Source of the DNA: a virus
Virus record (IMG/VR): IMGVR_UViG_3300009149_000197
Coordinates: 1 to 28,964 of that record
Reading direction: 5' to 3' (one strand)
DNA: 28,964 nucleotides
Shown here piece by piece: positions 2,117-26,938 of this stretch; positions within the stretch are counted from its first letter, which is position 1; each line of letters begins with the position of its first letter. Under the pieces are notes generated by a model. The model ran no database searches. It was not told the DNA's origin and worked only from the letters and a program-made list of their open reading frames with translations. The position numbers were made by a program, and so were the translations under genes.

Positions 2117-2285
2117 ACACCACCCCCAAGTTCTCCATCAATTCAGCTTCGCCGCCTGCCTCGTCGCACATTGCGTCCCAGTCGGACTCGCAGATGGCAG
2201 AGGCGTCACTGCGCACACCCATGTTGTCAGTCTCGGCAAGCAACAGAATACTCAATTCCCCATTACATATTAGGTAGTATTTCAC
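2100..2285 (-). CDS. Hypothetical 61-aa acidic protein
   Basis: I chose the GTG at 2283-2285 because it overlaps the stop of the leucine-rich-repeat gene as GTGA and has GGAGGG about 8 nt upstream; a longer reading from 2321 would overlap that gene by 40 nt. The product is acidic (many Glu/Asp in the C-terminal half) with a hydrophobic N-terminal third (YYLICNGELSILLLAE). No family is recognised. The overlap suggests translational coupling to the LRR protein, so it could be a partner or chaperone of that protein, which is inference only. Confidence 0.5.
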   Translation of the reverse strand: MKYYLICNGELSILLLAETDNMGVRSDASAICESDWDAMCDEAGGEAELMENLGVVYADEF

Positions 2286-3094
2286 GGCGCTGACCCTCCA
2301 TTCCAACTTATTGCGGCCCACGTTTGGAATCCCTGACTATCATCGTCAAATATCAAGTCGTGTAACATTTCCAACTCATCCAACGGCGTCGGATACCCGT
2401 CCTGATATGTCCCCGTCGGTGCAGCATTCGTCCCGCCTATGTTTAACTCAGGCGTCGCATCATCCCAGTCAGCACGTCGTGTCCAAATGTCGAGTATGCT
2501 GCTGTCAACGGCGGATTGTAACATGCCATTGTCCTGAGCCTGAATTTTCACTATCGTATTATTTAAACCGCTCAAGTCTAGCGTAGTAATGTCATTACTA
2601 GAGCAATTCAAATAGGTTAGAGCACTCAGCAAACTTACATCTAGTATAATGAGATTATTACCTGCGCAATCCAAAAACCCCAAATTGGTTGCTGCACTTG
2701 GGTCGAGTGTATCTATATCATTAGAGGCACAATGCAAAGTTGTCAAACTAGTCAACACACTTAGGTCTAGTGTAGTAACCTGATTGCCATAAAACCATAA
2801 CTTTGTCAAACTACCCGCTAAAGGATTAAGTGTGCTACCAATTGCCCCCGCAAGACTGTTGTCATGCAAATTTATCCCTGTTACATGCCCGCCAGCTACT
2901 GTAACTCCGTTCCAGTTGCCGACAATCGGGTCAGTAAGCCAGTTGGTGTTATCAGTCCAGTTAGCTCCGTCGGTGGCGTTGTAGAGCTGCACCAGCGCCA
3001 GCGCCTCGCCAATTGGCACGTCGGTGACACGCTTCCAGAGAGGTTCTGGCCCCCCTCGCCGTCGAACTTGCGTCCCCGTTATTCTAGCTCGCAT
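2282..3094 (-). CDS. Leucine-rich-repeat protein, putative tail-tip or receptor-interacting protein
   Basis: The 270-aa product has an N-terminal cap-like region (about 28-84) of the type found before bacterial LRRs (ALVQLYNATDGANWT, then NWNGVTV). About four 21-residue LRRs follow at roughly 97-180, each on the pattern L-x-x-L-x-C/Y-x-x-N-x-[IVL]-x-x-LD-x-S. There is no signal peptide. LRRs form curved solenoids that bind proteins or glycans. The gene overlaps the end of the preceding structural gene by 11 nt and lies in a run of fibre-like genes downstream of the tail hub, so a receptor-binding or adhesion role is likely. LRR proteins are uncommon in siphovirus tail modules. A secreted or intracellular host-interaction role cannot be excluded. 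Confidence 0.8.
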   Translation of the reverse strand: MRARITGTQVRRRGGPEPLWKRVTDVPIGEALALVQLYNATDGANWTDNTNWLTDPIVGNWNGVTVAGGHVTGINLHDNSLAGAIGSTLNPLAGSLTKLWFYGNQVTTLDLSVLTSLTTLHCASNDIDTLDPSAATNLGFLDCAGNNLIILDVSLLSALTYLNCSSNDITTLDLSGLNNTIVKIQAQDNGMLQSAVDSSILDIWTRRADWDDATPELNIGGTNAAPTGTYQDGYPTPLDELEMLHDLIFDDDSQGFQTWAAISWNGGSAP

Positions 3095-14864: not shown

Positions 14865-15266
14865 TTATGTCGTGATATGTGCCCAGTCGCCCGCCGCGCC
14901 CCATCCAGCAGTTAGAGTAACTGCGCCGTCTACCGACGCCTCGATACTCATATCGACCCACGCCAACCCATAGTGATATTTCGTTGTTGCGCCCGATGAT
15001 GGGTACAGATACATTTTTAGTCTTTCGCCGGAAACCATCGCCGTATAAAATCCTTCGAAAGAGTCATCCCACCATGCGCTAAATTCTCCACTACAATCGG
15101 GCAATCCCTGAACGTACTGGATATTACTATCTCCCATCGCGGGTGTCGCCACTCTATCGGCCGCCATACTAAGTGACCAGCTTTGCAACGACGTGGTGGT
15201 TGTCGCCTCGCCTGCTGCGCTTGTCCCCATATACACTACGCCGCCATGCCCATGATATCTACTCAT
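14865..15266 (-). CDS. Major tail (tube) protein
   Basis: The 133-aa product starts at an ATG with AGGAGG 7 nt upstream, overlapping the previous gene by 8 nt. It is a compact beta-rich protein with tail-tube features: an N-terminal arm (HGHGGVVYMGTSA), a SWSLSMAADRVATPAMGD block of the type used in tube subunits, IQYVQGLPDCSGEFSAWWDD in the middle, and a terminal strand pair (DMSIEASVDGAVTLTAGW). Small tubes of 130-200 aa are normal in siphoviruses. It is followed two genes later by the frameshifted chaperone, which supports the call. Confidence 0.85.
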   Translation of the reverse strand: MSRYHGHGGVVYMGTSAAGEATTTTSLQSWSLSMAADRVATPAMGDSNIQYVQGLPDCSGEFSAWWDDSFEGFYTAMVSGERLKMYLYPSSGATTKYHYGLAWVDMSIEASVDGAVTLTAGWGAAGDWAHITT

Positions 15267-16329
15267 TTTCGTGCCTCCTGCTCTCGTCTACAAAAATCAA
15301 ATTGTCTATTAAGTCCCTAGCCCTGTTCTCGAACGTGTTCCCCTGAACGGCTTCACATAGTTTGCGAGCACGTTCTTCCCGTTCCTTGTCATGCCCTAAC
15401 CACCAGCGCATCATGTCGCCAAACTCAGTGGGATCTCTGAATATCGGCAATGCTCCGCCGAATACCTCTTCCGCTTCTGCCCGATCATCGCTGATAAAAA
15501 ACACACCACTTGCGGCCAGTTCATAATCTCGTGGGCCTAAACTGCTGGCTGCGCCCTCGTCAATGAGCAGAGCGTCTGGCCCATATCCTACTGATCGGCG
15601 GTGTAAGCTGAAACTCATCTTGGCCGCCTTGTACGCGGCAATAGCCCACTCGTTAGGGATTGCATCACTCTGAACGCATTGCCGTAGTGGACTATCATCA
15701 TCTAGCAGCTCCCACACCCCATATAGCCCCAGATCAATTCCCGTCCAGTCTACCTGCTCCAGGAATTCTACTCGTTCCCGAAATCCCGTGCCCACAAATA
15801 CCACGTCATGTCTAGGCATTTCTATTGTGGGCGGCTTGGTATTGTGCCGTTCTGGGTCAAACGCATGTTGCCAATAAAACGTATATGGCTGCACCTCTTT
15901 AAAGGCAGGAAGACTATTCCTCTCATTCGTCCAGCAGGCATATGCGTTCCGTGCCATTTTTAATTGAGGCGCATCATCATAAGGGCTTTCTGTGCACAAA
16001 ATTGCAATCGGCAAGTGTGCTCTATGTAATAGCTCGACCACGTCTGGATGGAAACTCATCCCCGCAACTACCAATACTAGATCGACATTGAATCGGAGTG
16101 CCCGCTCCAGTATCTGCACCGATGTCTGGTATAGAATTTCTTCTTTTGACGGAGGCGCCGCCTCTTTTATTGCGTGTAGAAAATGCAGGTACTGTGCCAT
16201 GACATTCATCCGTCCGTCTAGACTAAATCGTATCACCTCCTGCCCGTGCATCTCTAACCCCTTGGCCAGTCCGTCATGAACCTCAGCGGTTGCATAATTC
16301 GCCGCAGGGTGCACTAGAAGTATCTTCAT
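15259..16329 (-). CDS. GT-B-fold glycosyltransferase (CgeB-like)
   Basis: The 356-aa product begins KILLVHPAANYATAEVHDG, a Rossmann-type start of a GT-B enzyme. In the second domain SLGPRDYELAASGVFFISDD (about 260-285), followed by FRDPTEFGDMMRWWL, matches the donor-binding end of CgeB/glycosyltransferase 1_2-type enzymes, where a Glu/Asp after the Arg contacts the nucleotide sugar. The family transfers sugars from nucleotide donors. The start overlaps the zinc-ribbon stop as ATGA and the gene ends 8 nt into the tail tube gene, so it is expressed with the virion proteins. Acceptor and sugar are unknown; a virion protein or a pre-existing glycan are the main candidates. Confidence 0.8.
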   Translation of the reverse strand: MKILLVHPAANYATAEVHDGLAKGLEMHGQEVIRFSLDGRMNVMAQYLHFLHAIKEAAPPSKEEILYQTSVQILERALRFNVDLVLVVAGMSFHPDVVELLHRAHLPIAILCTESPYDDAPQLKMARNAYACWTNERNSLPAFKEVQPYTFYWQHAFDPERHNTKPPTIEMPRHDVVFVGTGFRERVEFLEQVDWTGIDLGLYGVWELLDDDSPLRQCVQSDAIPNEWAIAAYKAAKMSFSLHRRSVGYGPDALLIDEGAASSLGPRDYELAASGVFFISDDRAEAEEVFGGALPIFRDPTEFGDMMRWWLGHDKEREERARKLCEAVQGNTFENRARDLIDNLIFVDESRRHENE

Positions 16330-16523
16330 TCGTCATCTTCCTCTTGACGGTAATTTATGATAACTTTCTCTGAGAACTCCTCGGGCGGATCGTATGAAAA
16401 CCCCTTCGTGGGTGGGGGCAACGGGGACTCCCGCTTCGCCAAACATTCTGGGCAAACTGGCCCGTCAACCTCTCGCAATAATCGCCCGCAATCCTCGCAT
16501 GTCGTATATCCTTTACCTACCAT
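16326..16523 (-). CDS. Small zinc-ribbon protein in the modification island
   Basis: The 65-aa protein carries a probable zinc ribbon, C-x2-C at residues 9-12 (TTCEDCGRL) and C-x2-C at 24-27 (PVCPECLAK), then a Pro-rich and acidic tail (EEDDE at the end). It starts one base after the sulfotransferase stop and overlaps the GT-B start as ATGA. Possible roles are a binding partner of the neighbouring enzymes or a small regulator; there is no direct evidence for either. Confidence 0.7.
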   Translation of the reverse strand: MVGKGYTTCEDCGRLLREVDGPVCPECLAKRESPLPPPTKGFSYDPPEEFSEKVIINYRQEEDDE

Positions 16524-16524
16524 C

Positions 16525-17097
16525 TCACTCCTTCATGTATCCGTATCTATCTGCCATATCAACGATTCGTGGAAACATCTCGGGAGCGGCTCTACTTAGG
16601 TCATCCCAAGAAATGTCATTGTGCTCTCTGTGATTTGTATCTTTCGGGATACTGGTTGTCGCTACATCATACCTGATTTCGTAACCGAGTATAGCCATGA
16701 TATACGTCCACTCATCTTCAAGATTCTCAATTCGATAGGTCATACACGCTTGATCTTCGGCTAACCGATTCCACCAATACCAATAGTGGGCACTGCGTTT
16801 TAGTACCAGCCAATCAAGATTAATCGGAATCCATCGAGCAACAAAATCCCAGCTACTACTTGTCATCACGCTGGCAATGTTATTCAACGGATGACGCACC
16901 TGGTGGAAAATCCAATCAAACTGCGGTCTTGGCCCTTGCTGGTGAAACTTGGGATACGGCGGACTGGGTGCAGTCCAGACACTGCTAACTGCCCCGTCGG
17001 TTCCCAGATACTCGTGGCCAACATCTATGCCAGCCTGCTGCAAACTTCTCGCTATGTATAGCGTACCACTTCGCCCGCACCCCGTTATTAAGAACAT
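16525..17097 (-). CDS. Sulfotransferase (PAPS-dependent, P-loop)
   Basis: The 190-aa product starts with FLITGCGRSGTLYIARSLQ, the 5'-phosphosulfate-binding P-loop of sulfotransferases (GxGRSGT), and has HQVRHPLNNIASV at about 65-77, fitting the 3'-phosphate-binding block (R-x-P-x-x-x-x-x-S). It is a little shorter than typical family members. These enzymes move sulfate from PAPS to hydroxyl or amine groups on glycans, lipids or proteins. It lies between a methyltransferase (10-nt overlap) and a zinc ribbon, with glycosyltransferases on both sides, which suggests sulfation of a phage-built glycan. Host PAPS would be needed. Confidence 0.8.
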   Translation of the reverse strand: MFLITGCGRSGTLYIARSLQQAGIDVGHEYLGTDGAVSSVWTAPSPPYPKFHQQGPRPQFDWIFHQVRHPLNNIASVMTSSSWDFVARWIPINLDWLVLKRSAHYWYWWNRLAEDQACMTYRIENLEDEWTYIMAILGYEIRYDVATTSIPKDTNHREHNDISWDDLSRAAPEMFPRIVDMADRYGYMKE

Positions 17098-17648
17098 TTT
17101 GCCACCCGCCTGTAGAAACTTGTCTGCGTGGGGCTGAGTTGACTGGCGCTGTTGATCTTCGTCCCTGCAAAAACGTGCCCTTCCCAGCGAAGATCTTCGT
17201 CAAGAGATTTGCTAATCGCTCTTAGCAATCGCCAGTTAGAGTCGTCAATGACTAGATGACCGCCCACCTTGACCTTGCCCATTGCGGTTCCTATACACGC
17301 AATCCGTGTGCTACTATCGCCGTCGACAGAGACGAAGTCGAAATACTCTGACGGGAATCGTCCGATTGCAGCAGTATATTCTGCGAGACTTGTTAGAATC
17401 ACTTGCGGCGATACTCCATGCATCTCGGCTGCTTTCATCACTTCAGCATACCAACTCTGCCTGTGCTCTACTGAAACTACCATCTCTGCACGTTTCGCTA
17501 ACCAGATAGTAGAATGCCCACTGCCATACTCAAAGACTCGACACATGCCCTCATATGGTTGCAAGAGAACATCCCAATAAGCGATGGCCTCAGGAATGAG
17601 CGACGGTGTGGGATCACTTCCTATGGGTCTCACTCTATGATTATCCAT
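17088..17648 (-). CDS. Class I SAM-dependent methyltransferase
   Basis: The frame extends to a TTG at 17696, but I prefer the ATG at 17646-17648: GAGG lies 5 nt upstream and it does not overlap the previous gene. The 186-aa product contains motif I as VFEYGSGHSTIWLAKRA (SAM-binding loop), a motif II acidic residue in VVSVEHRQSW, FDFVSVDGDSS in the motif IV region, and VKVGGHLVIDDS as the following strand. The fold is clear but the substrate class is not; O-methylation of sugars, as in many glycan clusters, fits its neighbours. It overlaps the sulfotransferase start by 10 nt. Confidence 0.8.
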   Translation of the reverse strand: MDNHRVRPIGSDPTPSLIPEAIAYWDVLLQPYEGMCRVFEYGSGHSTIWLAKRAEMVVSVEHRQSWYAEVMKAAEMHGVSPQVILTSLAEYTAAIGRFPSEYFDFVSVDGDSSTRIACIGTAMGKVKVGGHLVIDDSNWRLLRAISKSLDEDLRWEGHVFAGTKINSASQLSPTQTSFYRRVAKCS

Positions 17649-17670
17649 TGTCCCCTCATAATATGAAAGG

Positions 17671-18363
17671 TCATTCTTGCTCCCACCACCCCACAACGTC
17701 TAGCCCCTTGTCGTTTAAATATACGTTCTTTGACCATAATGAATCAATTGAGTCAATAGCCGTAATCGAACTGATCTTGCTTCGATGTGGAATAACTACG
17801 CGCTCAATTTCCCGCCGATGTAGGTGTGCGCTAATAACAATATCATCATTCATGGGCCATTGCTCCCACTCTTTAAGGAGGCTGATCCTGAGCAACCCCG
17901 GCCGATATAGTGCTCCCCAATTCCCCGATAGAATTGACACTGAGACAGCGGGCCCTTCCCTCACAGAAATTGTTGCCGCTGAATTGTAATTTCTATTATC
18001 CCCCCTAAATACCCGCCCACGATAGCACGGGACACAGCCCGAATGATGTTCGCTATAATCTATCAGGTCTTCCGCCCAATGCTCACCATAGAGCACGTCA
18101 TCATCGGCAGTAATGATCATTTCGGTCTCTATATTCAGTAATGCGGGCAATAGCTTCGTGATCGGGCCATAATCTGCCGTCACTTCAACACAACAATCAG
18201 CTAAAAAATCTGGCACTTGACCATCCCAAGTCACCCCTAATCGCGTGACTTCTTTCGGAATCCAGACATATACCGGTAATCCCTGTGCCAGCAATCCATT
18301 AATGCACGGCTCAATATACGGTAGGCGGCCCGGTATGGTTGTAAGAGAGATGATTGTCTTCAT
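17671..18363 (-). CDS. GT-A-type glycosyltransferase (230 aa)
   Basis: The product starts KTIISLTTIPGRLPYIEPCI, as in nucleotide-sugar transferases, then has a GPITKLLPALLN stretch and the metal-binding DxD-type motif in MIITADDDVLYG (about 83-94). The later NWGALYRPGLL and WPMNDDIVISAHLH segments resemble the acceptor side, with a second acidic cluster (NDD). It overlaps the preceding GT2 gene as ATGA. The sugar and acceptor are unknown. A role in glycosylating virion proteins or a host-surface glycan is inferred from the neighbouring transferases and from the late operon. Confidence 0.75.
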   Translation of the reverse strand: MKTIISLTTIPGRLPYIEPCINGLLAQGLPVYVWIPKEVTRLGVTWDGQVPDFLADCCVEVTADYGPITKLLPALLNIETEMIITADDDVLYGEHWAEDLIDYSEHHSGCVPCYRGRVFRGDNRNYNSAATISVREGPAVSVSILSGNWGALYRPGLLRISLLKEWEQWPMNDDIVISAHLHRREIERVVIPHRSKISSITAIDSIDSLWSKNVYLNDKGLDVVGWWEQE

Positions 18364-18872
18364 TGCATTTTGCTCATTGCTTTTTTAATCCACATGATCT
18401 TATCTGCTAGTTCATAACACCTGGTCAGAAATGGATAATCTCCTCCTCGTTTAGGCTCAAATGCTTCTATTGCCTGCATCCACACATCTCTTTGTACCAC
18501 CACTGCGCTAATGCCTATCTCCCCAAACCCCGGACACCTCATCCCCTGCTTTGGCAATATCCTGCCCTTATGATCCATTTGCATTACGATCAGATCTGGG
18601 TCATTTGCGATAACAATGTCTCGAATCTCTGCTACAAAGTTTTCGCTTATCAATTGGTCATCATCGTCTAGAATGAAAACGTAATCCCCATAGACCTTAT
18701 CCTTATGAACTATAAGCTGGCGATTGGCCCACTCAATCCCATGGCCCTTGCTATCTTCCAGAACCAGGTGCTGAAAATCCTGATCGGTCTGTACGCGTAA
18801 GCTGGCAGCGCAAACAGCGAATTGCTCTTCCCGACTCAACAAGTGCCGAGTTACTACCGTTAGCAAGGTCAT
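18360..18872 (-). CDS. GT2-like glycosyltransferase (170 aa)
   Basis: This short GT-A enzyme begins LLTVVTRHLLSREEQF and has the metal-binding aspartates in YVFILDDDDQLISENF (about 64-79), the hallmark of family 2 transferases. It lacks the longer C-terminal half of full GT2 proteins, as do several GT2-like proteins in phages. The start overlaps the tail terminator stop as ATGA and the end overlaps the next transferase as ATGA, so it is translated in the structural operon. Donor and acceptor are not predictable from sequence alone. Confidence 0.8.
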   Translation of the reverse strand: MTLLTVVTRHLLSREEQFAVCAASLRVQTDQDFQHLVLEDSKGHGIEWANRQLIVHKDKVYGDYVFILDDDDQLISENFVAEIRDIVIANDPDLIVMQMDHKGRILPKQGMRCPGFGEIGISAVVVQRDVWMQAIEAFEPKRGGDYPFLTRCYELADKIMWIKKAMSKMQ

Positions 18873-21097: not shown

Positions 21098-21466
21098 CTA
21101 GCTGTAAACGTCACTGGTTAGCACTAGCATATACCCGCCGATTGTGCTTGCATTAGCCGCAGCATTCGCATCGAAACTCAACTCACTACCCGCCTCTACA
21201 ACTACCGGAGTTTCGGCTCCACCAAAGTGTGTGGAAATCCACTCACCAGGATCTTCTTTGTCCGCGCAGTCAATCGCCGTGATAACTCCTGAAGCGTCGT
21301 CATTTATGTCAACCGTCAATCCCGAATCATCTGTATCAGATCCGAGAGAAACGTAGACAATCGTACAATCGAAGGGAACGTTGATATAATAGTCTAACGC
21401 CCCCAGCGCAGCGCCTTCTACAGGATTTACCATCTTAATCGGGATACTCAAAAGTCGCTCATTCAT
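21098..21466 (-). CDS. Putative decoration-type protein, paralog B (122 aa)
   Basis: This beta-rich protein is a tandem copy of the upstream gene: by hand count 96 of 122 residues are identical with no gaps, including the invariant block IDCADKEDPGEWISTHFGG. It starts at an ATG behind AAGGAGA, 17 nt after the end of paralog A. It lacks catalytic motifs and signal peptide. Its position after capsid, lipoprotein and protease genes suggests a capsid decoration or fibre-type protein. Differences are concentrated around residues 11-30, 40-51 and 106-120, as expected for exposed loops. Confidence 0.7.
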   Translation of the reverse strand: MNERLLSIPIKMVNPVEGAALGALDYYINVPFDCTIVYVSLGSDTDDSGLTVDINDDASGVITAIDCADKEDPGEWISTHFGGAETPVVVEAGSELSFDANAAANASTIGGYMLVLTSDVYS

Positions 21467-21483
21467 TTTCGTGTCTCCTTCTA

Positions 21484-21852
21484 CTAGCTGTAAACGCCAC
21501 TTGTTAGCACTAGCATGTAGCCATGAATAGTTGTTTCAGCCGCTGCGTCGTTCGCATCGAAACTCAACTCACTACCCGCGTCTACATGTACTGGAGTCTC
21601 AGCTCCGCCAAAGTGCGTACTAATCCACTCACCAGGATCTTCTTTGTCTGCGCAATCTATTCCCTCGATAACCCCTGTTGCATCATCGTTTATGTCCAGC
21701 GTCAAATCGGGATCATCTGTATCTGCTCCAGCGGAAACGTAAACGATCTCGCAGTCGAAAGGGATATTGATAAAATAGTCGTCGTCCCCCAGAGCCGACG
21801 CGTCGGCCGGATTCACCATGTCAATCGGAATGCTCAGAAGTCGCTCATTCAT
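21484..21852 (-). CDS. Putative decoration-type protein, paralog A (122 aa)
   Basis: Its ATG overlaps the stop of the CHAT-like gene as ATGA. It is beta-rich and acidic, with VSAGADTDDPDLTLDINDDA and a C-terminal AGSELSFDANDA strand region, and no signal peptide or membrane helix. The near-duplicate gene follows it. High copy is plausible for a decoration or fibre protein, but the sequence does not reveal copy number. No family is recognised. Confidence 0.7.
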   Translation of the reverse strand: MNERLLSIPIDMVNPADASALGDDDYFINIPFDCEIVYVSAGADTDDPDLTLDINDDATGVIEGIDCADKEDPGEWISTHFGGAETPVHVDAGSELSFDANDAAAETTIHGYMLVLTSGVYS

Positions 21853-22406
21853 ACCACACCTCCAGCTATAATCTCAAACGCCAGTGCATCTTTGCTAGGA
21901 CATATCTTCTGTCCTAGCGCTGTCTTGAACTGACGCCAATCTAATCTCAATCTCATCTTCGCCAGTCTCAAAGCCCATCGTACTGGCAACCCCAATCTCA
22001 ATCCTCGCCACACCCATCGGGCCAATAGGTCGGCCCCTACTACCCGTCGTGCCGCCCCATAGTTCGGGCCTGGCCCTGCTATCACAATTGCACCCGCACT
22101 AGTCAACGCGCTCACAAATATATCTTCTGTGCCATAGCAGTTCGCTATAAGAACAACGCAACCACTAAGACTTGCATGTGCTAAATTTCTAATCACAAGA
22201 GCCGTCGGCTTTGATCCGTCCTGCCCTTCTCCATACCATTGTCCCTGTGCAGTGCTGTGCAATCGGAAGTAAAGCATATCTAGATCACGCAATTTCCTAA
22301 CTGGAAACTGACTAGCTATGAGTGGCGGCGAGGTCAAAGGAGTTATCCCTAGCGCCTTCTGTACGGCCACCGCCGCCACCTCGGTACAATAAGCTACTAT
22401 TCTCAC
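21849..22406 (-). CDS. CHAT/caspase-fold-like cysteine protease candidate
   Basis: The 185-aa product has the pattern of a caspase-hemoglobinase fold, CHAT-type. The strand LDMLYFRLHS ends in a candidate catalytic His50. The strand CVVLIANCYGTED carries candidate Cys90 followed by Gly, as in the CHAT L-x-A/N-C-x-x-G block. AGAIVIAGPG follows as the next strand, and ARWVWRGLRLGLPVRWALRL matches the closing helix pattern of CHAT domains (G-x-x-V-x-x-A-L). It is a single domain with no signal peptide. Its start overlaps the lipoprotein stop and its end overlaps paralog A (ATGA both times), so all three are co-translated. Likely targets are neighbouring virion proteins, but cleavage is unproven and the protein could be inactive. 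Confidence 0.55.
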   Translation of the reverse strand: MRIVAYCTEVAAVAVQKALGITPLTSPPLIASQFPVRKLRDLDMLYFRLHSTAQGQWYGEGQDGSKPTALVIRNLAHASLSGCVVLIANCYGTEDIFVSALTSAGAIVIAGPGPNYGAARRVVGADLLARWVWRGLRLGLPVRWALRLAKMRLRLDWRQFKTALGQKICPSKDALAFEIIAGGVV

Positions 22407-24430
22407 TTGATTCTTATGTAGAGCAGGTACAGTGTCAGTTCGCCAGCTTCCAGGTCATCGCCCGTCGCGCCCCACGCCACATCAATAGTATCAGCTGCGC
22501 CGCTCGGAGCAATGATATAGCCCGCCCCTGCCGCCATATACGCGCCAATAGTATCTACCCCATATCCCTGCCAACCCGCAGGCCCGTTCGCAACATCCGT
22601 GTCTGCCTTTTGTAGTTCAGCATCGTCCAAGTCCAAAATGCCGTCGGGGTCAGCAGTATCCCCCACATCAAAAGTAGCATCATCGCCTGCCGTTGCATCC
22701 CAGTCCGTGGTAACGTTAGCGTAGCAATTGAGAATGATCCAGATTTCGCCGTCAGGAACTGTAGCCAGCGTATGAGTTCCGCCAGCCCCAATTGTCCAGG
22801 TGATATCTTTTGTTATCAACGAAGGGGCCATAAAGTTCTTGACCTCAGCCGCCAGCGTGGTCAAACCGCTTATGCTAACATCCCCCGTCATGGCAATAGT
22901 GCCATCCGTGTTGTTGTCAATGGTCTCTCCATGGTCGAGCACAATGTCTGCCCCCGTGAAGGAAGCATCCTCCATGTTGATTCCATTGACCATATCGCTT
23001 GCGCCAGAGGTCATCTCGACGCCAACATCCATTTTTGCGCCGCTGTTGCTGGCATGGCTGTTCAGGAAGAGCCCCGCGTCCATGTTGGACGAGCTCTCGA
23101 TATTGATGCCATAATCGACCACAGTGTCGTTGTGCGTCTTGAAGAACAGGCCATTGGTCTGTACGTCAAAATCCTCAGTAGCCGTTGGCCCCCATTCGCC
23201 ATAGAGCAGGTTGAGCGTAGCCGAACTCCCGCCCATGTTCGACAGCATCCCGCCAGAAGTGCCACCGTGAATGGCCGCTCCCACAGCGGAGATATTGTCG
23301 TCGACAGTATAGGTCTGCGTCTCGTTCACGTTGACTAGAACGTCAATCGCGTGCAACTGATTCACTGCCACCGCTTCGCCCGCGCCTCGCATGTCCATCC
23401 GCCCACGCAGTGCATAAGCGTTCTGTACGTCTTCAATGGGATTAGAGGAGGCATAGATGCCGTTGCTACCCCCACCGGTCATATCAGCGCCCGCCGTCCA
23501 CTCTGCGGTGATCAAGTCTCCATACTCATTGGCCGTAGTCGTGCGGCTGATGTCAACTGTAGAGTTCATATCAACCGGGCCATCTGCGCGTAGCGTGCCG
23601 TCAAACTCACCATCTCCAGCTACAAGCAAATCATTATCGCCATCGGCTACATCGCCATCTACACCCGCATTGCCAACATTTAGCATGTCGCCATCAATGG
23701 CAAAGGGCCCTGCGGTTGTCAGGTCAACGTCCACGCCCAAACTACCGACATCGATGTCAATTCCGGCACCAGTTTCATCCGCATCCAAGTAGATAGCAGC
23801 TTGATCAGCTTCGTCGCCTTTGATTGTAACGCTAGCTACTTCAGACTCAATAGTTATGTCACCTGCGGCGGTATTGAAATTGCTCGCAAGATCGGCATCT
23901 AACGCAATAGCCCCTTCAGCATCAACGTCAAGCCCCGCGCTACCGGTGTCTATGTCAATTCCACCACCAGTCTCGTTCGCATCCAAGTGGATAGCATCCC
24001 CAGCCGCCTCGTCACCCTTGATGATGACACTCTTAGTCTCGGCTTCGAGGGTTAGGTCAGCAGCGCTCACGTTGAAATGACTGGCCGTATCTGCATCCAA
24101 GGTTATCGCCCCAGTAGTATCCACATCAAACGCGCCAGTTATCGACGCGTCGTCCACCACTGTGAGATTGCCGTCCGCGATATTAAGCGCGTCCTGGCCA
24201 GCCGTTCCCGTGATTTCCAACGCAGCATCTGAGGCGTCCCATAGCATAACGTCGCCACTCGTGCCGCTATACCAGGTCACATCAACGCCCGTGCCGCTCA
24301 CGCCGAAATGCGTATCACTCGTAACGTGACTCGTTCCCATCTCCTGAACTTTGTCTCGTTCGCAGCCAATCAACCCGATCATTAGGATGACGGCCAGGAG
24401 AACACTCCATATAATTCTTTTGTGTCTCAT
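22403..24430 (-). CDS. Large predicted lipoprotein with tandem beta repeats
   Basis: The 675-aa product starts with a charged N-terminus, a hydrophobic core and the lipobox LIGC (Cys23), i.e. a classical lipoprotein signal peptide; Glu follows the Cys, which in diderms often means outer membrane. Residues about 107-238 contain two 66-residue repeats (first lines GAITLDADTASHFN and GAIALDADLASNFN). A long beta-rich fibre-like region and a C-terminal beta domain (about 555-675, ending LTLYLLYIRIK) follow. It lies 24 nt after the capsid gene. It may be a surface-exposed late lipoprotein (superinfection exclusion or receptor masking), or a virion fibre whose N-terminus only resembles a signal. 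Confidence 0.7.
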   Translation of the reverse strand: MRHKRIIWSVLLAVILMIGLIGCERDKVQEMGTSHVTSDTHFGVSGTGVDVTWYSGTSGDVMLWDASDAALEITGTAGQDALNIADGNLTVVDDASITGAFDVDTTGAITLDADTASHFNVSAADLTLEAETKSVIIKGDEAAGDAIHLDANETGGGIDIDTGSAGLDVDAEGAIALDADLASNFNTAAGDITIESEVASVTIKGDEADQAAIYLDADETGAGIDIDVGSLGVDVDLTTAGPFAIDGDMLNVGNAGVDGDVADGDNDLLVAGDGEFDGTLRADGPVDMNSTVDISRTTTANEYGDLITAEWTAGADMTGGGSNGIYASSNPIEDVQNAYALRGRMDMRGAGEAVAVNQLHAIDVLVNVNETQTYTVDDNISAVGAAIHGGTSGGMLSNMGGSSATLNLLYGEWGPTATEDFDVQTNGLFFKTHNDTVVDYGINIESSSNMDAGLFLNSHASNSGAKMDVGVEMTSGASDMVNGINMEDASFTGADIVLDHGETIDNNTDGTIAMTGDVSISGLTTLAAEVKNFMAPSLITKDITWTIGAGGTHTLATVPDGEIWIILNCYANVTTDWDATAGDDATFDVGDTADPDGILDLDDAELQKADTDVANGPAGWQGYGVDTIGAYMAAGAGYIIAPSGAADTIDVAWGATGDDLEAGELTLYLLYIRIK

Positions 24431-24454: not shown

Positions 24455-26938
24455 CTACACATTCGCTTTGTAAAGCGGTCGGAAGTCGGCTACCGGTGCG
24501 CAGTCATAGGTGGAGCTAAATCTATAGATCATCAACCGCACCTTGAACCGCAAAGTATCATTCGTGAACATAGAACCAGCAGTCTCGTCCCCTGCCTCGA
24601 AAATCTCAGGTGTCCGCAGCCCACGCAAATAAACGAGATAGATCGCAGGCCATTGTCTAGGATCAGCTACTGCCGCCCAATGATCCGTTTCTGTCCATTC
24701 AGGGACTGTGATAATCTCAAATCCCTGATAGTACGGGTTCACATCGTTGTCCATCGAAACAGGCACAAACTCACTGTTGCGAATCTGCGTTGCTGTTGAT
24801 CTAAGATCAACAGGCACAAGTAGAAAATGCGGCTGAATCAGCAACTTTGTACCGGCGCCCAGCGCCTGGTCGGTTTGCTTCATCATTGCCGTCACTGCCG
24901 CGTCCCACGTTGTGTAACTTAGTGCCGTAGTCCCAAGGTTAGCGTGTCCACCTGAGCTTGAAGCTGCCGTCGCGTTGAACAATGCCCCGCTCGGGTTCAT
25001 CACGGGTCCCGTAGCAGTGTTCGTGGTGAACACCGCACTCACCAGCGCCGACTGGGTGTTAAACCACGAGTTAGACAATCGCCTTGGAAGCGATCGAATC
25101 ACATTCAACTTGTCCTTTAGCATCGTCTCCATCGTGATTCCCATATAGTTACCGCGCTTGACAAACGAAGCGGTTTCTTCCTCGTCAGTCCAGTCCATTT
25201 CAGTGTAGGCCGCGCCTTCTGTAACCGTATCCAATGTGTCCGTTCCGTACAGCCGTGCCAGAGTGATGTCGTCAATAGTATCAACTTCCTCAATTGTCAC
25301 GACGTCTTCAAACCACCGGCGACGCTCAGAATAATCGGCCGCCACTAACAGGTTCACTGTATTCTTGATGATGGTTGTAACCGTAGCGGTTGTTACCGCT
25401 TCACGCGCCCTTGACGTTAGGGGATTCCCGCCCCATACGTTATAAAGCCAGTCGGACAATCGGCGTTCCCGATAGTTTGGTCGGCCCGCGTTCTGCCATG
25501 AACGATAGGATTCGGGCATACGATCCTTGACCCAATCCTCGCTTATGCTTTCCAGCTTGCGCATTGTGCTGCTACCGGCAACCAGGTCGAGAAATGCCAT
25601 TTCAGCCTTCTCAATACTCGCCATGCCTACCTTGATATCCCCACCGCCCGCGCCGGTTATACGCCCGCTGGTATCGGCTTCGGCCTGTGCGCCCTTCAGT
25701 TGTTTCACCATTTTGTCTACCTCTGCTTCCGTTACAACGCGTCCGTCAAAAGCTGCCTCAGCTACTGCTTGAAATTTGGCCGACAGATTAGCCCTCGCTA
25801 GCTTTTTGTCCATCATGATCTGCGATTCCAGCTTGGCCACCTTCTTGGTCATACTGTCGTCCTCAACGATTTCAGTCTCTTCGACTTCGGGCTCTTCGTC
25901 AGAAGCCTCTTCAACAGGTTCCGCGTCAACTTCAGGCTCAACTTCCTGTTCGCTCTCTGGCTCGCTTTCGATAACCTCTTCTCTTATCCCCAGCTCGGCG
26001 AGGGCCGCCTTGAGCTCTTCGGGATCAGCTTCCTGCAAAAATGTCAATAGTTTACCCATCTCGTCTACTCCCTGATCTACTGTTATGGCCGCCACGATTC
26101 TATCAAATGCTCCGCCGGCAGCCGGGTTTGATACCACGTCTACTGAGAAAATGTGCTCAAAGGATTCGATGGTCGGCCACATGTCGCCCTCTACACGCAC
26201 TCGACCCACGTTTCCCGGTACGGTGTCAATGCTCAACCCAATACTATCCAGCACGCCCGCATCATGGGCGGCTTTCAATTTCTTGCCTAAAGCTTCATCT
26301 ACAACCTTCAGGCGCCCCCGCAACTTATGAGCACTCTCGTCCCACCGTACATTGACAATCGTGCCCACCCACTCGTTTGCTACGGAACGCATTCCCTGAC
26401 GCTGTTGAAACTCTTCATCGGATAAATGGTTGTCAAAAACCTTGACGCCTTCCCATAATCCGACGCTGTCACGCAATCCGTCAACACTGTACAACCGTTC
26501 ATTCTTGGAGCGAATGTACTGCCGCCCCTCGACGGTAAGCAGATCGCCGCCTTCTCTTGCGCCAATGAGCGTTACATCCCACTCGCGGCCTGTAAACTCG
26601 CCGTCCCCTTGTGCTGGTGTAACGTCAGCCTCAACGATATGTGACTCGCGCCCCACCCCTGGCCGTTCTGCGCGCCGCATTGTACCGCCACATTCTGGGC
26701 ATTTAATATCAGCACAATGTTCCTCGCTTGCCATAACATACCCGCAGTCCAGACATTCACATTGATAAGCCTCCGTTTGCTCTTTGGCAGAGCGCCACTG
26801 TGAATAACAAATAGCCGTTGCTTGATTCCGATCCTCTTCACTATCTGAGTCTAGCCCTTGATCCTCAATCACTATCGGAATGCAACGGGATATAAACTCT
26901 TGTTCTTTTTCCCCTGACGTAGGTGCCGGTAGTGGCAT
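24455..26938 (-). CDS. Fused prohead protease, linker and major capsid protein with zinc ribbon
   Basis: The 827-aa product starts behind GGGAGG (6 nt spacing). The N-terminus resembles that of other prohead proteases (ICYSQWR at about 43-49), then a zinc ribbon follows with C62-x2-C65 and C80-x2-C83. Residues about 115-285 are the HK97-type protease: VKVFDNHLS with His171 and SIGLSID with Ser236, then EHIFSVDVVSNPA. An acidic, helical linker (about 300-400) resembles the scaffold or delta domain, and about 400-827 is the HK97-fold capsid (IIKNTVNLLVAADYSERR, then GNYMGITMETMLKDKL, ending CAPVADFRPLYKANV). The protease would cut the linker after assembly. A fusion makes protease and capsid one-to-one, unlike most phages, unless an internal start is used. 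Confidence 0.88.
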   Translation of the reverse strand: MPLPAPTSGEKEQEFISRCIPIVIEDQGLDSDSEEDRNQATAICYSQWRSAKEQTEAYQCECLDCGYVMASEEHCADIKCPECGGTMRRAERPGVGRESHIVEADVTPAQGDGEFTGREWDVTLIGAREGGDLLTVEGRQYIRSKNERLYSVDGLRDSVGLWEGVKVFDNHLSDEEFQQRQGMRSVANEWVGTIVNVRWDESAHKLRGRLKVVDEALGKKLKAAHDAGVLDSIGLSIDTVPGNVGRVRVEGDMWPTIESFEHIFSVDVVSNPAAGGAFDRIVAAITVDQGVDEMGKLLTFLQEADPEELKAALAELGIREEVIESEPESEQEVEPEVDAEPVEEASDEEPEVEETEIVEDDSMTKKVAKLESQIMMDKKLARANLSAKFQAVAEAAFDGRVVTEAEVDKMVKQLKGAQAEADTSGRITGAGGGDIKVGMASIEKAEMAFLDLVAGSSTMRKLESISEDWVKDRMPESYRSWQNAGRPNYRERRLSDWLYNVWGGNPLTSRAREAVTTATVTTIIKNTVNLLVAADYSERRRWFEDVVTIEEVDTIDDITLARLYGTDTLDTVTEGAAYTEMDWTDEEETASFVKRGNYMGITMETMLKDKLNVIRSLPRRLSNSWFNTQSALVSAVFTTNTATGPVMNPSGALFNATAASSSGGHANLGTTALSYTTWDAAVTAMMKQTDQALGAGTKLLIQPHFLLVPVDLRSTATQIRNSEFVPVSMDNDVNPYYQGFEIITVPEWTETDHWAAVADPRQWPAIYLVYLRGLRTPEIFEAGDETAGSMFTNDTLRFKVRLMIYRFSSTYDCAPVADFRPLYKANV
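26057..26072 (-). promoter_or_regulatory. Possible internal ribosome site and start inside the capsid fusion gene
   Basis: A GGGAG (26068-26072) stands 8 nt before an in-frame ATG (26057-26059), codon 294, exactly between the protease domain and the acidic linker. Initiation here would give a 534-aa linker-capsid protein without the protease, which would solve the stoichiometry of the fusion. The positioning is suggestive; use is unproven. Confidence 0.45.

Follow-up and report, generated by a model that had tools for sequence, protein, structure and literature searches.

Most of what is known about CHAT enzymes, which have a caspase fold, comes from cellular signalling and defence. Among the closest described systems are Csx29 and TPR-CHAT of type III-E CRISPR, whose catalytic residues are a histidine and a cysteine, H615 and C658 in Csx29 (PMC10028731) and H585 and C627 in TPR-CHAT (PMC9729208). 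Csx29 has a dedicated substrate, Csx30, which is cut between residues 427 and 429; deletion of M427 blocks this cleavage, and no single residue of Csx30 is essential by alanine substitution (PMC10028731). Other enzymes of the same fold, the gingipains and separase, are large secreted or eukaryotic proteins, and some clan CD enzymes join proteins rather than only cutting them (PorU, GPI transamidase). The sortase/LPXTG and exosortase/PEP-CTERM systems are familiar cases in which a dedicated enzyme serves proteins that bear a membrane anchor and a short tag. In phages, head maturation proteases of the HK97 and Mu type have another fold. In bacterial polymorphic toxins, which are a different setting, caspase-like domains have been described as peptidases that carry out processing (PMC3482391), and a search of the open-licence literature, in which absence is weak evidence, found no account of a CHAT or caspase-fold protein encoded in phage virion clusters.

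Here, we describe a computational analysis of a 28,964-nucleotide stretch of viral DNA (IMG/VR record IMGVR_UViG_3300009149_000197, positions 1 to 28,964; hereafter the window), in which a first-pass annotation had placed a CHAT/caspase-fold-like protease within a phage structural operon. What is new is the conserved pairing of the gene of this putative enzyme with the gene of a tagged, anchored protein, which is found in 20 of the 20 loci where the neighbour can be read.

Results

The gene and its surroundings

The enzyme gene lies downstream of the capsid gene, between the gene of a 675-aa anchored protein and tandem genes encoding proteins of 122 aa, all on one strand (Table 1). An intact copy is present in a second, near-identical record (L001). 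Because the reading frame is intact in L001 and 23 further loci encode homologs with both of the predicted catalytic residues, it is more than a chance occurrence; the 185-aa open reading frame is a real gene of an undescribed family carried by uncultured tailed phages. The first-pass annotation, made without database searches, had described a 185-aa protein with His50 and Cys90 40 residues apart, which held, the gene lying on the minus strand where no strand had been given. The ATGA overlaps that it claimed on both sides held in part, as only the downstream overlap is ATGA and the upstream one is GTGA. Its remark that the module already carries a prohead protease is fair, in that the neighbouring capsid protein matches protease-capsid fusion families.

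Table 1. Positions of the enzyme gene, its predicted catalytic codons and associated genes (window coordinates unless a locus is named)
Feature	Position	Strand	Basis or remark
Clan CD / CHAT-like cysteine peptidase candidate	21849..22406	minus	185 aa, GTG start; ORF list, homologs, model
His50 codon, predicted catalytic histidine	22257..22259	minus	After predicted strand 44-48; 24/24 homologs
Cys90 codon, predicted catalytic cysteine	22137..22139	minus	After predicted strand 84-87; 24/24 homologs
675-aa anchored repeat-rich protein, candidate substrate or partner	22403..24430	minus	GTGA overlap with enzyme gene
N-terminal hydrophobic anchor, residues 6-23 of 675-aa protein	24362..24415	minus	Hydrophobic stretch computed
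QEMG, residues 29-32 of 675-aa protein, a Q-x-M-[S/G] tag	24335..24346	minus	Candidate cleavage or docking site
122-aa decoration-like protein, first tandem copy	21484..21852	minus	ATGA overlap with enzyme gene
122-aa decoration-like protein, second tandem copy	21098..21466	minus	79% identical to first copy
827-aa major capsid protein, Phage_capsid_4	24455..26938	minus	Matches protease-capsid fusion families
Second tagged protein of L039	L039 5533-6063	plus	Anchor and Q-x-M-[S/G] on a different body, without Pfam match
Second tagged protein of L048	L048 9500-10066	plus	Anchor and Q-x-M-[S/G] on a different body, without Pfam match

Several other features of the window were recorded. The tandem duplication of the decoration-like genes (21098-21852, minus) is also seen in L009/L012 and L015, and the capsid protein (24455-26938) has a zinc-ribbon-like N-terminal stretch at about residues 59-90, a sub-threshold Pfam match, that is absent from the L009 homolog. 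A run of sugar- or methyl-transferase-like genes lies inside the structural operon at 15259-18872 (minus). It comprises Pfam matches to Glyco_trans_1_2 (15259-16329) and, exactly at its cut-off, to Methyltransf_24 (17088-17696), a sub-threshold rhamnosyltransferase match (18360-18872), and a protein at 16525-17097 that looks like a sulfotransferase by eye and has no Pfam match; this run is possibly a virion-modification cassette. Near the contig end, a leucine-rich-repeat protein (LRR_4, E 1.2e-9) is encoded at 2282-3094 (minus).

Homologs and conservation of the predicted dyad

Starting from the enzyme protein alone, one near-identical record was found (L001). Relatives of the capsid and decoration proteins were fetched, and a blastp comparison of all their open reading frames yielded two enzyme homologs, 46% and 44% identical and likewise encoded immediately ahead of the decoration gene (L020 and L022, for which L032 and L035 are aliases, first reached through these neighbouring proteins). 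A three-row alignment kept His50 and Cys90; searches with it reached 19 viral loci, and a larger alignment reached 25. With the exclusion of L001, which duplicates the window protein, and of L042, which encodes the same protein as L027, the working alignment contained 24 sequences, in which the homologs are 42-52% identical to the window protein.

Both His50 and Cys90 are invariant in this alignment (24/24), as are Cys7, Ser26-Pro27-Pro28, Arg48, Trp57, Asn115, Asp126, Arg152 and Asp173. The conservation of His50 is partly built in for 18 of the 24 rows, since this residue sits inside one retrieval pattern; it is present in all six rows that were retrieved without the pattern, and two more rows, L032 and L035, had initially been reached by way of neighbouring proteins. 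Cys90 was in no pattern of the viral searches that retrieved homologs. Homologs lacking both residues would have refuted the protease claim, and there were none among the 24.

Sequence profiles did not identify the family. Neither Pfam nor PHROGs matched the window enzyme. The Pfam CHAT profile (PF12770) matched none of 18 family members at E up to 10, the later six rows not being covered, and gave no match in the whole record; the enzyme is therefore called CHAT-like, and not a member of that family. Peptidase_C25 gave a sub-threshold match in only one of 18 members (E 0.13), no peptidase sequence profile reached its cut-off for the enzyme family, and PADLOC anti-phage defence profiles matched none of the 24 members at E up to 10. 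The best hits of PDB sequence searches were unrelated, searches of annotated phages and plasmids returned no significant homolog (three matches at E = 6 in one search), and the 62 and 29 pattern matches in bacterial and archaeal genome contigs contained no relative. Three sets of weak matches were taken as Rossmann-like noise: those to an alpha/beta-hydrolase (E 0.0011, a single member of 18) and to Bag6_BAGS (E 0.0062, two of 18), and scattered NCBIfam ones (best E 0.0057, an oxidoreductase, five of 24 members).

Predicted structure

A confident model needed the homologs. AlphaFold2 gave a pLDDT of 88.2 and a pTM of 0.86 on the 24-row alignment, and a useless model with a pLDDT of 39.5 from the single sequence. 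In the former, His50 and Cys90 each lie just after a predicted strand, and helices 124-137, 142-163 and 170-175 are predicted to follow the sheet, so that the His-strand, the Cys-strand and the closing helix pattern named in the first-pass annotation all held.

The top three Foldseek matches were DdvA, Csx29 and TPR-CHAT, with E-values of 0.003-0.009; none fell below E 0.001, and the weak matches included flavodoxins and dehydrogenases. Foldseek alone would not settle the fold of the enzyme, and realignment of 1000 chains separates the classes. The top 26 realigned rows are clan CD peptidases, with Z 8.0-12.1 over 147-172 residues, a count in which we take the DdvA rows and 7x8a to be clan CD although their titles do not say so. 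TPR-CHAT (7y85) and Csx29 (8eex) both reach Z 12.1, over 155-158 residues and at 12-15% identity. They are followed by DdvA (8rw5, Z 12.0) and SAVED-CHAT (8tl0, Z 11.9), at 13-19% identity, and by the gingipain RgpB of family C25 (4ief, Z 11.9) and separase (5fc2, Z 10.3), which share the fold at 6-20% identity. Caspase-3 reaches Z 8.2. Non-peptidases start at 8.0, and flavodoxins reach at most Z 8.0, over 120 residues. For this tool a Z under 8 may mean merely a common arrangement, and the top group stands 4 units above that value. CHAT structures, among which we take DdvA to belong, make up five of the top six realigned rows and are tied with RgpB. CHAT, C25 and separase are nearly tied by Z, and the safe name is therefore clan CD peptidase, CHAT-like.

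When residues 1-184 of the model are aligned to Csx29 567-750, His50 and Cys90 fall near 616 and 656, as against the catalytic H615 and C658; over the TPR-CHAT range 534-715 they fall at about 583 and 623, as against H585 and C627. This agreement, within 1-4 residues, is an end-to-end estimate from the aligned ranges and involves no residue-level superposition. Absence of a caspase-like sheet, or a wide separation of the two residues, would also have refuted the claim. The sheet is present in the model, and both residues are at strand ends in the register just described, no exact distance having been read. A single-domain clan CD (caspase/CHAT/gingipain/separase) fold with a His50-Cys90 dyad is well supported as a model prediction, from which peptidase activity is inferred; the kinship to CHAT rests on comparison of the predicted structure only. 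Thus, the claim of a CHAT/caspase-fold-like protease is supported for fold and dyad, whereas membership of Pfam CHAT at the sequence level is not, and proteolysis is not shown.

Among viral structures, the closest match is an uncharacterised protein of 320 aa from Myoviridae sp. ctWaE18 (BFVD A0A8S5MXG5; Foldseek probability 0.91, E 0.034), which is possibly another phage protein of the same fold.

A tagged, anchored protein is encoded beside the enzyme

Partners were surveyed at 24 enzyme loci, with L001 standing for the window and L042 left out. Candidates were plus-strand open reading frames with an N-terminal hydrophobic stretch, defined by a hydropathy rule that did not use the tag, and the start was moved to an inner ATG in two loci (L036, 4188; L046, 5214). 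At four of the 24 loci (L028, L041, L043 and L045) the contig ends before the N-terminus of the neighbour; the rule flagged in L045 only a reading frame inside the enzyme gene, which was discarded. An anchored protein flanks the enzyme gene in all 20 loci with a readable neighbour N-terminus. Eighteen of these genes overlap the enzyme gene or adjoin it within 18 nt, and the others are 40 and 138 nt off; the proteins of L030 and L046 are truncated by the contig end.

Each of the 20 anchored neighbours carries exactly one Q-x-M-[S/G] motif, positioned 6-12 residues past the hydrophobic stretch. Their N-termini are dissimilar (15-27% to that of the window), yet the Q and the M are invariant. The tagged proteins fall into 16 groups at 60% identity and 7 at 40%, and are not 20 independent cases. 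Within the window (32 genes scanned, 9116 residues) the motif occurs only in QEMG of the 675-aa protein, and the background is 34 occurrences in 265,894 residues (1246 open reading frames of 100 aa or more, near-duplicate loci being skipped). Among 80 open reading frames with an N-terminal hydrophobic stretch, 22 carry the tag right after it, all of them in enzyme-bearing loci. Those beyond the 20 neighbours are one second protein each in L039 and L048, which are 66-67% identical to each other and resemble the first tagged proteins of these loci mostly in the N-terminal part only. A viral scan seeded with tagged N-termini reached 11 loci, none of them outside the contigs on which the enzyme was already known; as 10 of the 11 had seeded the query, the converse, a tag without an enzyme, was tested weakly.

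Four loci (the window, L027, L032 and L035) have the anchored gene upstream of the enzyme gene and a capsid protein related to the Phage_capsid_4 protein of the window; in the other 16 readable loci the anchored gene lies downstream. L049, the only locus of the downstream arrangement run through Pfam, has a capsid of the Mu gpT type. The side on which the anchored gene lies therefore flips between phages, across two capsid types. The pairing of enzyme, tag and anchored protein is a strong correlation.

The 675-aa protein shares 53% identity over its C-terminal 146 aa with the anchored neighbour of the enzyme in L036. Its anchor ends in a lipobox-like LIGC (residues 20-23), read by eye, and the anchors of both the window and L049 look by eye like lipoprotein signals. 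The anchored protein of L037 has a C-terminal Phage_depo_C domain (E 5.4e-10), and the upstream protein of L043 has a Phage_depo_C match just below the cut-off; the partner therefore looks like a surface or fibre protein.

Relatives without the enzyme

In L012, L015 and L024 an anchored protein occupies the same slot with no enzyme (L012 is on the same contig as L009, L015 on the same as L023, and L025 is a near-copy of L024). The tag is present in 20 of 20 anchored neighbours with the enzyme and in none of these three without it, as dedicated sorting systems would show, the control group being small at three lineages only. The fetched stretches of L013, L014, L021 and Microcystis phage Mae-JY22, the last judged by eye, contain no enzyme and have no anchored protein after the capsid gene, and the whole records behind L004, L005, L006, L008 and L009 contain no enzyme homolog anywhere. 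A capsid tree was sought for independent co-loss of enzyme and tag; none of its eight inner branches was well supported, and gains and losses were not countable. In this poorly resolved tree L012, which lacks the enzyme, is the nearest row to the window; VEMPF stands at the tag position of its anchored protein and is possibly a decayed tag, on the strength of one case.

In the anchored protein of L015 (11171-12298, plus) the hydrophobic stretch ends in TAVAQ, a signal peptidase I-like site by eye. Host processing may replace the phage enzyme in this enzyme-free locus.

Discussion

By a modest margin, we favour the view that the gene encodes a phage CHAT-type cysteine protease processing a tagged, membrane-anchored surface protein, with protease activity and cleavage both inferred. 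The enzyme, for which the gene, the invariance of the dyad in this set and the predicted fold are shown, would be co-translated with the phage head and decoration genes. At the N-terminus of its partner, for which adjacency and the co-occurrence of enzyme and tag are likewise shown, a short basic stretch leads into the hydrophobic anchor, and one Q-x-M-[S/G] site stands 6-12 residues beyond it. This tag would be what the enzyme recognises and cleaves, a cut behind the Met being the simplest case; both the role of the tag as a cleavage site and the position of the cut are inferred. The cut would separate the anchor from the surface domain, and the mature protein, whose destination is also inferred, would join the virion or leave the membrane. 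Of the targets suggested in the first-pass annotation, the conserved pairing and the tag speak for the lipoprotein, that is, the 675-aa protein, whose cleavage is inferred. The decoration proteins are not favoured, as they lack the tag and also occur without the enzyme, and nothing points to host defence proteins (PADLOC, 0/24).

The main difficulty for processing is one of topology. The enzyme has no evident export signal, and from the basic N-terminus and the anchor the tag is predicted to lie outside the membrane, away from a non-exported enzyme. Cutting before membrane insertion, after lysis or inside the assembling virion would avoid this difficulty; none of these is shown. Additionally, the lipoprotein-like anchors of the window and L049 would be handled by host signal peptidase II, which counts against processing by the phage. 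The tag could possibly be a structural or docking element instead.

The likeness of the enzyme to Csx29 and TPR-CHAT includes the order and register of the His-Cys dyad as well as the fold, and Csx29 with Csx30 offers, by analogy, a parallel for the reading of a dedicated protease and its substrate. The phage enzyme differs from both in that its 185 aa stand alone, without TPR or regulatory domains, in a phage head module with no CRISPR link and without a Pfam CHAT match. SAVED-CHAT and DdvA differ in that their CHAT-fold regions lie inside larger proteins. Sortase and exosortase systems are similar in the co-occurrence of an enzyme gene with proteins bearing an anchor and a tag, two bodies being tagged in L039 and L048, but the phage tag is N-terminal, the enzyme belongs to clan CD and the setting is a phage. 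Head maturation proteases of the HK97 and Mu type are likewise encoded in the head module, and the phage enzyme, too, would act on a phage structural protein; the window already has a protease of that type fused to its capsid protein, and L049 has one encoded by a gene of its own.

A bolder reading, which we judge more apt to be wrong than right, is that of a phage protein-sorting system, in which a single-domain clan CD enzyme serves a portable N-terminal tag borne by different surface proteins. The tag would consist of the basic segment, the membrane anchor and Q-x-M-[S/G], and the enzyme would cut, or cut and transfer, so that its action would determine whether a fibre or decoration protein is retained at the host membrane or enters the virion. 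If true, phages would have their own equivalent of sortase-type systems, based on the caspase/CHAT fold.

Four rival explanations were considered. The enzyme and its neighbour might form a signalling or exclusion pair, in which the lipoprotein-like partner would be placed on the surface of the host and the CHAT-like enzyme, in the cytosol, would act on sensing superinfection, much as CHAT proteases serve as switched effectors in bacteria. Known CHAT proteases are switched enzymes, Csx29 being activated by target RNA (PMC10028731), the anchor has an exported look, and the adjacency holds in all testable loci. However, the 4-bp overlaps with neighbours inside the head module suggest that the gene is expressed late, the partner resembles a fibre protein and in L037 has a C-terminus of depolymerase type, and no defence-system profile matched any of the 24 members; we regard such a pair as unlikely. 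It is similarly improbable that the enzyme is a counter-defence or host-takeover protease that would cleave a host protein, its position beside the anchored gene being incidental. Phages can carry small single-domain proteases as accessory genes, and the enzyme is absent from the fetched stretches of L012, L013, L014, L015, L021, L024 and Microcystis phage Mae-JY22. Against this stand two observations: a tagged protein is encoded next to the enzyme in all 20 testable loci, across two arrangements and two capsid backgrounds, and anchored proteins from loci that lack the enzyme also lack the tag.

A transpeptidase-like, or sortase-like, enzyme would cut at the tag and join the surface protein to a virion or host component. 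A short tag and anchor common to different bodies resembles sorting signals, and RgpB, a C25 enzyme, scores with the best structural matches; nothing, however, identifies an acceptor, and known sorting tags of the sortase-like kind are C-terminal. We regard this proposal, too, as improbable. Least probable of all, and very unlikely in our view, is that the protein is not a peptidase but a flavodoxin- or Rossmann-like one whose likeness to CHAT reflects a common alpha/beta arrangement. The lack of any Foldseek match below E 0.001, the flavodoxins and dehydrogenases among the weak ones, and the lack of a peptidase profile at its cut-off are consistent with it. It is opposed by the realigned clan CD scores (Z 8.0-12.1 over 147-172 residues, against 8.0 over 120 for flavodoxins) and by a His50 and Cys90 that stand in catalytic register and never vary.

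The favoured reading, that of a protease dedicated to a tagged partner, yields a small stand-alone CHAT-type candidate with a predicted short recognition motif that can be tested in vitro. Such a conserved phage family, encoded in virion gene clusters alongside a candidate substrate that bears a candidate site, would widen the range of the CHAT/caspase fold to include phage morphogenesis.
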